34,671 nt of DNA from an uncultured Ruminococcus sp. (GTDB taxonomy: Bacteria; Bacillota; Clostridia; Oscillospirales; Ruminococcaceae), in assembly GCA_902780695.1 (NCBI GenBank), contig CACZGM010000014.1, positions 1-34,671 on the forward strand, given 5' to 3'. This document shows, in pieces, positions 24,823 to 25,863 of this stretch. The notes under the pieces were generated by a model. The model saw nothing but the letters and a program-made list of their open reading frames with translations, had not been told where the DNA came from and did no database searches. How positions within the stretch are numbered: the stretch's first letter is position 1; every line of letters starts with the position of its first letter. A program made the position numbers and the translations under genes.

Positions 24823-24884
24823 GAGATGATATCAGGCTCCTTTATGACAGGATTCGCGCAGGATGATACTTAATGTCTGCTCAT

Positions 24885-24999
24885 CAGCCAACAAATTGCT
24901 TCATAGCGCAGCTTGAAGCAATTTATTGGCTGCAAAAGTGCAAGGAAAATTTATATATTTTAGGATTATCCTTGCACTTTTGTTCGTCCGAAGGACGAA
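24885..24999 (+). repeat. Three consecutive hairpins, first half of the hairpin array
   Basis: Hairpin 1: 24885-24903 pairs with 24914-24932 (CAGCCAACAAATTGCTTCA with TGAAGCAATTTATTGGCTG), one C-A mismatch in 19. Hairpin 2: CAAAAGTGCAAGG (24933-24945) with CCTTGCACTTTTG (24970-24982), perfect, directly abutting hairpin 1. Hairpin 3: TTCGTCC-gaa-GGACGAA (24983-24999), directly abutting hairpin 2. There is no spacing between the stems and no T run, so they do not look like terminators. The 64-codon ORF that crosses them is not credible as a gene. Confidence 0.85.
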
Positions 25000-25017
25000 A
25001 TGAGCTTGACATCAAGG

Positions 25018-25127
25018 AATGTGTCCGTTGTTTAAATGCACCGCAGGCGCATTTAAACAACATCTGAAAATCTGTTTTGCAGATTTTCAGCCAATAACTG
25101 CCAAAAGGCAGTTATTGAGGACACATT
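25018..25127 (+). repeat. Cloverleaf of three perfect hairpins closed by a 9-bp stem
   Basis: AATGTGTCC (25018-25026) pairs with GGACACATT (25119-25127). Inside are three perfect hairpins: GTTGTTTAAATGC/GCATTTAAACAAC (25027-25039/25049-25061, 13 bp), CTGAAAATCTG/CAGATTTTCAG (25064-25074/25080-25090, 11 bp) and CAATAACTGCC/GGCAGTTATTG (25092-25102/25107-25117, 11 bp). Junction linkers are 0, 2, 1 and 1 nt. All 44 base pairs are Watson-Crick. It is not a tRNA (no T-arm, anticodon loop or CCA). It may be a structured RNA or a DNA element that extrudes as a cruciform. Confidence 0.88.
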
Positions 25128-25152
25128 ACTTACAAAGACCAACTTTTGACAG

Positions 25153-25187
25153 ACAGCCTGTTGTCTTTTGACAGCAGGCTGTTTTTA
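25153..25187 (+). terminator. Intrinsic terminator after the hairpin array
   Basis: ACAGCCTG (25153-25160) pairs with CAGGCTGT (25175-25182), extended inward by a T-G wobble and TGTC/GACA around a TTTT loop, followed by TTTTTA. It would end a transcript that includes the hairpin array, whether from its own promoter or read-through from the 22591 gene. Confidence 0.9.
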
Positions 25188-25213
25188 TAGTTCATGATAA
25201 ACGAATTTAATCA

Positions 25214-25242
25214 TTGACAATACAGACAGGACATAGTATAAT
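25214..25242 (+). promoter_or_regulatory. Consensus promoter of mntP-vanZ
   Basis: TTGACA (25214-25219), 17 bases, TATAAT (25237-25242). Transcription near 25249 leaves a leader under 30 nt, so there is no room for the yybP-ykoY manganese riboswitch that often controls mntP. Confidence 0.92.
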
Positions 25243-25275: not shown

Positions 25276-25863
25276 ATAGACATTCTCGTTTTTATCGTGA
25301 ACAGTATCCTGCTCGGTGTCGGGCTTGCAATGGACGCGTTCTCCGTATCCCTTGCAAACGGACTTAACGAGCCGGGAATGAAGCGCGGAAAACATTTTCT
25401 CATAGCCGGAACATTCGCGTTCTTTCAGGCGGCGATGCCGATGATCGGCTGGGTCTGCGTTCATACGATCGTGACCGTATTTTCGGCGTTTGAGAGCTTT
25501 ATACCGTGGATAGCACTCGGACTTCTGCTGTTCATCGGCGGCAAGATGATATTCGACGGCATCTCGGGAAAGGACGAAAGCGAAGAGAATGTCGGCGTAG
25601 GATTTGCAGCACTTATGGTGCAGGGCATAGCGACTTCTATAGACGCGCTTTCCGTCGGCTTCACAATAGCGGATTACGATGTGTGGTCGGCGCTCGCGGC
25701 CGCCCTCATAATCGCGGCTGTTACGCTGGTCATCTGTATGGCGGGGCTCGCGATAGGCAGAAAATTCGGTACAAAACTCGCCGGAAAAGCACAGATACTC
25801 GGCGGTGTCATACTTGTCGGCATCGGCATAGAGATATTTGTGAGCGGAGTTTTTTTCAAGTAA
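25276..25863 (+). CDS. mntP: MntP, manganese efflux pump
   Basis: Exports Mn2+ across the membrane. Six hydrophobic segments and the two family motifs GLAMDAFSVSLANGL and GIATSIDALSVGFTIADYD, whose Asp residues line the transport path, make the call firm. The start is odd: the only strong ribosome binding site (AAAGGAG, 25259-25265) points at an ATA codon at 25276 (IDILVFIVNSILLGVG...), while the first canonical start in frame is GTG at 25297, with no ribosome binding site and only 11 residues before the MDAF motif (14 in E. coli MntP). I give the ATA-based coordinate; 25297-25863 (188 residues) is the conservative alternative. A VanZ-like gene follows after 11 bases. Confidence 0.85.
   Translation: MDILVFIVNSILLGVGLAMDAFSVSLANGLNEPGMKRGKHFLIAGTFAFFQAAMPMIGWVCVHTIVTVFSAFESFIPWIALGLLLFIGGKMIFDGISGKDESEENVGVGFAALMVQGIATSIDALSVGFTIADYDVWSALAAALIIAAVTLVICMAGLAIGRKFGTKLAGKAQILGGVILVGIGIEIFVSGVFFK

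Follow-up and report, generated by a model that had tools for sequence, protein, structure and literature searches.

The stretch of DNA analysed here (the window, 34,671 nt) is contig C14 of the 3.29-Mb genome of an uncultured Ruminococcus sp. (G000), and the question raised by the locus under study is what a chain of close-set, almost perfectly paired hairpins represents and at which level (DNA or RNA) its pairing is maintained. The original prediction described six stems, the last three of which are closed by a further 9-bp stem (25018-25026 with 25119-25127), and an ordinary terminator hairpin following them at 25153. All of these were found in the sequence (the closing stem exactly so); the stems of the six-hairpin chain are thus real, but their description was incomplete, as a second closing stem, the bounds of the element, its target duplications and its multi-copy state had been missed. 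The chain belongs to a single copy of a non-coding mobile element of 254 bp (a MITE, 24873-25126; Table 1), which carries terminal inverted repeats (ATGTCTGCTCAT and ATGTGTCCTCA(A) ends), is AT-rich as MITEs are (GC 39.4% vs. 50.5% for the window) and, in keeping with a class of gene-less elements that typically measure under 500 bp, contains no listed ORF of at least 80 aa. Most unshortened copies measure 251-255 bp.

Table 1. Coordinates of the element and of its neighbouring features in the window (hp, hairpin; TIR, terminal inverted repeat; I and II, the left and right cloverleaf).
Feature	Position	Strand	Remarks
Left target-site duplication TACTTA	24867-24872	no strand	identical to 25127-25132
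Whole composite MITE, 254 bp	24873-25126	+	bounded by inverted ends; multi-copy; other copies have empty sites
Left outer end (TIR) ATGTCTGCTCAT	24873-24884	+	5' side of closing stem of cloverleaf I
hp1	24885-24932	+	19 bp with one mismatch; L073 and L166 show the exact inverse of its apex
hp2	24933-24982	+	apex inverted between L031-type and L002
hp3	24983-24999	+	
Inner left end ATGAGCTTGACAT	25000-25012	+	3' side of closing stem of cloverleaf I
6-nt linker CAAGGA	25013-25018	+	proposed decayed shared target duplication
Inner right end ATGTGTCC	25019-25026	+	5' side of closing stem of cloverleaf II
hp4	25027-25061	+	11 of 16 pairs changed on both sides; apex exactly inverted in L105
hp5	25064-25090	+	10 of 13 pairs changed on both sides; inverted apices
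hp6	25092-25117	+	
Right outer end (TIR) GGACACAT (inward reading ATGTGTCCTCAA)	25119-25126	+	3' side of closing stem of cloverleaf II
Right target-site duplication TACTTA	25127-25132	no strand	same as left copy
Ordinary intrinsic-terminator-like hairpin and T run	25153-25188	+	outside the element

Hairpins 1 to 3 are likewise closed, by an imperfect stem (24873-24884 with 25000-25012; ATGTC-TGCTCAT / ATGAGC-TT-GACAT) that the original prediction lacked, so that the element consists of two tandem cloverleaves of three close-set hairpins each, with the 6-nt linker CAAGGA between them. The ninth pair of the previously described closing stem is formed by the last linker base and the first base of the right target duplication, and lies outside the element proper. 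The fold of 24880-25190 reaches -150.9 kcal/mol, as compared to -69.1 +/- 5.0 kcal/mol for 100 dinucleotide shuffles (z -16.4, none of the 100 folding as well), a stability far beyond chance. Further downstream, a promoter-like sequence (TTGACA...TATAAT, 25213-25242) precedes a 188-aa, putatively MntP-like ORF (25297-25863) and is kept in G071, G060 and G002.

The original prediction had proposed to look for homologous blocks in related genomes, for several copies per genome and for empty sites, and each of these searches returned examples. A 326-base query produced 87 alignments in G000 (self-matching palindrome parts included); six further near-full-length copies in this genome are 70-76% identical to the window copy, while G011 and G002 hold copies with about 98% identity and G007 partial ones. 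The linker (scanned as a 25-nt pattern with at most 3 mismatches) was present in 16 of 71 genomes of the genus, its own included, with 26 matches in G000, 52 in G002 and 36 in G077; the reversed pattern, used as control, matched nowhere in these 71 genomes. Among 394 order-level genomes the matches were confined to four, namely G000 and three genomes with one 3-mismatch match each, which we place at chance level because the reversed control matches two genomes. The hosts among the matches listed are uncultured Ruminiclostridium sp., Clostridia and Ruminococcaceae MAGs (several of them named from rumen, omasum or abomasum), and the assemblies among these matches stem from several projects. No carriage by phages or plasmids was seen, either in viral contigs (exact 20-nt pattern) or in plasmids and phages (blastn). 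The element is a MITE, and in some gut Clostridia its copy number rises to dozens per genome. Single exact matches of the 20-nt linker pattern were also noted outside the group, in Syntrophaceae (L224) and Xenorhabdus (L246), perhaps by chance.

With regard to their surroundings, the copies lie close to genes and are mostly intergenic. In 64 gene contexts (repeated sites and copies with less than 350 bp of flank being dropped, L060 and L187 still counting twice) no ORF called by a mechanical caller spanned a copy, and in 10 of the 64 the same kind of mechanical check indicated that the copy may interrupt an ORF. Eight contigs of G000 (C3, C11, C13, C17, C29, C57, C62 and C69) start inside or beside a copy, which makes the repeat a probable cause of fragmentation when these bacteria are assembled from short reads.

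Past mobility of the element, which the original prediction had listed among DNA-level possibilities, is evident from its many sites, its target duplications and its empty sites. From 78 end-bounded entries (a few overlapping or degenerate) we used the 77 flanked ones (one with N in its flank was dropped, and site L060 is entered twice), and found 51 exact 6-bp duplications, 4 exact 7-bp ones, 15 with one mismatch and 7 other cases, where 11.9 exact duplications would be expected with shuffled partners. All 51 exact 6-bp duplications end in TTA (TAATTA 18, TTATTA 13, TATTTA 8, TACTTA 6, others 6), and the element would accordingly be one that inserts into NNNTTA (mostly TNNTTA) sites and duplicates 6, sometimes 7, bp. 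An empty site was found in the congener G088, in which a single TTATTG occupies the place of a G011 element (L061) situated between two TTATTA, with 83 of 86 flanking bases identical; moreover, the position of another copy (L063) is contiguous, unoccupied sequence in G077 (111/131 identical) and G007 (108/143). At the window locus itself G071 and G002 hold the neighbouring genes without the element, and no base-exact empty site was found there, the spacer being too diverged in G071 and G002, and G060 having N runs.

The double plan of the element looks like a fusion of two neighbouring mini-elements. In the simplest history, two simpler palindromic MITEs would have landed side by side sharing one target duplication, this duplication would have become the 6-nt linker, and the fused pair would then have moved as one; each half appears to keep a pair of inverted ends, which would yield the two closed cloverleaves. 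The linkers of diverged relatives are informative in this respect (entries of at least 190 bp, without N and with a readable junction). CAAGGA is found in 47 of 54 members of the window's family. Both G026 copies have CAATTA, the three G025 copies used show either CAAGTA or CGAGTA, and the three of G019 carry TAATCA (one base from TAATTA); CAATTA also serves as a real target duplication in two G000 copies (L009, L022). The linker of the window's family has probably drifted to CAAGGA, a sequence that no longer fits the target site and that counts against the fusion. The same two-cloverleaf plan is common to the diverged families of G025, G026 and G019, so that the very recent palindromic origin considered in the original prediction finds no support. 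Right ends of the GTGTGTAC kind characterise G025 and G026, where the inner right end has altered in step with them; the left unit of G019 reads GTGTCTGCT...AGCAGACAC. Furthermore, six head-to-tail pairs of neighbouring copies with exactly one shared 6-bp spacer were identified (L116, L117, L021, L240, L285 and L293) among nine listed rows, the other three being partial or doubtful.

The junction between the two halves is as conserved as the outer boundaries. Mean column identity amounts to 99.0% at the internal junction versus 98.4% (left; columns 1-15, 29 copies) and 99.2% at the outer ends, with hairpins ranging from 73 to 94%, and 22 of the 27 junction columns (133-159) are invariant. The inner right end is complementary to its own outer end at 8 of 8 positions in 35 of the 40 family A copies listed (7 of 8 in the other five) and at 6-8 of 8 in five family B copies, as compared to 4-6 when A and B are swapped; in G019 the pairing covers 5-6 of 8 positions only. 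That each half retains its own inverted ends could by itself account for the complementarity of the closing stems. A stricter version, in which the element would be an obligate two-unit MITE with all four ends still read by the transposase, each half folding into a four-way junction of its own and the pair of junctions, beyond the outer ends alone, forming the unit that is recognised and copied, appears doubtful to us. Several smaller or mixed forms were encountered as well: a divergent family of multi-hairpin MITEs, which has ends of the GTGTCTGCTCAAC type and whose target is similarly AT-rich (L356-L359 in G019, L353 in G025), of which L356 looks single-unit; a mixed locus in G007:C19 (L360), composed of a short copy and of a rearranged, diverged one whose left ends are doubled; and near-perfect palindromes of 44-45 bp (L194, L213, L145, L299 and others) with right ends on both sides, several of them beside a linker-like TTGATGT and some apparently alone.

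We propose that an IS5-family-type DDE transposase would act in trans on the two ends of the gene-less 254-bp element. That the mobiliser belongs to this family is probable, judging from an insertion sequence of a congener with the same 6-bp TAATTA duplication and similar ends. This element (L321 in G091) is 1,601 bp long, has perfect 11-bp ends (GTCTCTCCTCA, to be compared with ATGTGTCCTCA of the MITE) and TAATTA at either side, and its transposase frame attains 340 bits with NF033578 (cut-off 275). Its right end has the ten bases TCCTCAACAA in common with the right end of the MITE in 34 of 74 entries, or about half of the copies; another 37 of the 74, the window copy included, carry TCCTCAATAA, which deviates by one base. 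The right end of the insertion sequence continues with AACAAGCC, and that of the MITE, read inward, is ATGTGTCCTCAAYAACTGCC. The two differ in length, in the insertion sequence having its transposase gene in two pieces, in three of the first five end bases, and in that the insertion sequence was not found in G000. Matches to its protein occur in 3 of the 71 genus genomes, all three being among the 16 linker carriers (C(16,3)/C(71,3) ~ 0.01). Of the remaining accessible copies of this insertion sequence, each displays a single end, next to an AT-rich site of similar kind. The IS5_1 transposase model matched in 6 of the 16 carriers (two of the matches weak), with no match at E 1e-4 in the many-copy genomes G000, G002 and G011. 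Pairs of ATGTSTSCTCA ends 0.5-5 kb apart were not seen in G000 or G011 (list read by eye), pairs of a duplication plus an end were not obtained within the ranges set at 6 of 10 order-level transposase loci, and a partner with the exact MITE ends was not found, none occurring in G000. With no model match in G000, G002 and G011 and no pair of MITE-like ends seen in G000 or G011, the exact mobiliser was either not found or is gone.

Length variants set bounds on any role of the structure in movement. Shortened copies are common (30 were analysed, 12 of which share at least one deletion with another), and a 212-bp form lies at two unrelated sites (G073 and G002), both with duplications and 206/212 identical to each other. 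This points to mobility of a form from which most of hairpin 1 is gone, and suggests that an intact cloverleaf I may not be needed for movement. At the lower extreme, a 51-bp one-hairpin form with intact target duplications is present in G011 and G002 (50/51 identical), and may arise repeatedly between near-direct repeats. Longer copies occur too, namely three in G060 (L150, L151 and L153; 322-323 bp), of which L150 and L153, when folded, show hairpin 4 with an additional multi-arm structure nested in its apex.

We investigated the upkeep of the stems in 29 of 39 full-length, N-free copies, retained after dropping those at least 98.5% identical to one already kept. With a consensus structure obtained by vote among the RNA folds of these 29 copies themselves (and hence biased toward that structure and toward G-T pairs), 95.0% of stem cells are paired (88.3% in shuffles), 38 of 107 pairs have changed on both sides (25.4 in shuffles) and the covariation score is 0.230, versus 0.108 for shuffled and 0.035-0.070 for slid partners; of the pairs that differ, 41% are of Watson-Crick type in either of the two copies compared (8% in shuffles), and the number of further pair types (81 vs. 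80.0) is not above that of shuffles. Where two copies are 95% or more identical, double changes make up 12% of the pairs that differ, and 46% where identity is below 80%; that is, close copies show mostly broken pairs and distant ones more double changes, which indicates that single copies decay and propagating lineages stay paired. Four hairpins have apices that are inverted in some copies, the mismatches (direct/inverted) being 8/0 in hp1 (L073, L166), 10/2 in hp2, 5/0 in hp4 and 3/0 in hp5 (a short loop). PMC8604942 gives arm homogenisation and spacer inversion as marks of template switching between inverted-repeat arms, and according to PMC8794818 such switching can help to maintain stems. 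We infer, from patterns of change rather than from ancestral reconstruction, that replication template switching between hairpin arms would homogenise the arms, invert the loops and largely keep the stems near-perfect, with individual copies decaying after insertion. The G-T to A-C mismatches number 39:26 cells and 22:21 types in 94 strict pairs, and 90:60 cells and 34:29 types in all 107 pairs (a tRNA control, 8:3 from 16 tRNAs, is too small to decide); being not far from balance, they lend weak weight to the argument of the original prediction that pairing without wobble suits a DNA-level function. Together the stem data support, and do not prove, upkeep at the level of DNA.

To the explanation as a whole, that is, a MITE moved in trans by an IS5-family-type DDE transposase, consisting of a fused pair and maintained by template switching, we assign a probability of roughly 0.78. 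It competes with an account of the same MITE in which the four-way junctions would themselves be selected, a transposase or a host protein recognising extruded cruciform DNA or its arms. The strong covariation of the hairpins, the conserved closing stems and, in diverged families, the complementarity of inner right ends to their own outer ends are in agreement with such a signal; yet template switching explains the homogenisation of arms without selection, closing stems are expected where each half retains its own inverted ends, the derivative without most of hairpin 1 looks mobile, and the 51-bp forms with their target duplications retain one hairpin only. We regard this account as unlikely. 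Selection on RNA, with a transcribed element acting as a BOX- or ERIC-like module of mRNA stability or attenuation, would draw on the extremely stable fold and on the closeness of copies to genes (the L063 copy, in G011:C2, separates the ATG of one gene from a TATAAT-like sequence, and is possibly transcribed there), and PMC3049150 and PMC10969869 report that transcripts of MITEs fold stably and that genes nearby are affected. Against it stand the orientation of the copies, which shows no clear bias (the mechanical ORF caller gave a gene on either side in 52 of 64 contexts, and of these 9 have the copy along and 16 against neighbours that share a strand, 13 are convergent and 14 divergent), the fact that G-T is not clearly favoured over A-C, and the Rfam comparison, in which the best weak match at the element (PyrR, 31.5 bits vs. 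54) falls short of its threshold, and we hold selection on RNA to be quite improbable. A riboswitch or other known RNA family was rejected, as no covariance-model score exceeded the gathering threshold at the element; the window gave only two tRNAs, both elsewhere.

IS200/IS605 elements and REPINs, mobilised by Y1 tyrosine transposases, carry subterminal hairpins instead of inverted ends, and Y1 elements are not known to make a target duplication on insertion. A folded single strand moved by such an enzyme would fit the hairpins throughout, the mostly intergenic position and the multi-copy state, and was among the suggestions of the original prediction, as were REP and attC sites; the copies, however, have inverted ends and lie between target duplications of 6-7 bp, and a clean empty site exists. 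We consequently rejected a Y1-type element, which the target duplications contradict and which we deem very improbable, and the REP and attC readings find no support, given the inverted ends and the target duplications. An assembly artefact or a product of chance, which the position of many copies at contig ends might suggest, is scarcely credible: the window copy lies inside a 34.7-kb contig with its own flanks, no shuffle folds as well, and copies, target duplications and empty sites recur in other assemblies (from several projects, among the matches listed), on which account it was rejected. Likewise, the two outcomes named by the original prediction as speaking against it, that is, the lack of any homologous array or an artefact, are at odds with a linker shared by the genus genomes counted above and by MAGs of several projects.

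The window element is a composite, double-cloverleaf variant of the MITE, a known class. It shares with bacterial MITEs moved by IS transposases its short, gene-less, AT-rich body, inverted ends, target duplications, many copies, stable fold and an insertion sequence with similar ends, and differs from them in its two tandem closed multi-hairpin units, its conserved end-linker-end junction and its stems that covary throughout. PMC10969869 describes one such element, QMITE2 of Coxiella, with direct repeats of 7-9 bp. BOX of Streptococcus pneumoniae, as portrayed in PMC3049150, is likewise a composite, modular, structured dispersed repeat of variable length with IS-like ends; by that description it varies through tandem boxB modules, whereas the element reported here has two end-bounded halves joined by a target-site-like linker. 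No description of a double-cloverleaf MITE was found among the matches listed in the open-licence literature. REPINs and BIMEs with their RAYT transposases are dispersed repeats of several palindromes too, from which the target duplications set the present element apart.

Taken together, neighbours that share a duplication, fused pairs with a target-like linker and fused pairs with a decayed linker form a natural series that shows how a composite MITE may arise in these bacteria. Moreover, the inverted apices point to template switching in DNA, and perfect stems and covariation therefore need not mean an RNA function. A possible role of cruciform structure in DDE transposition thereby becomes a testable question.
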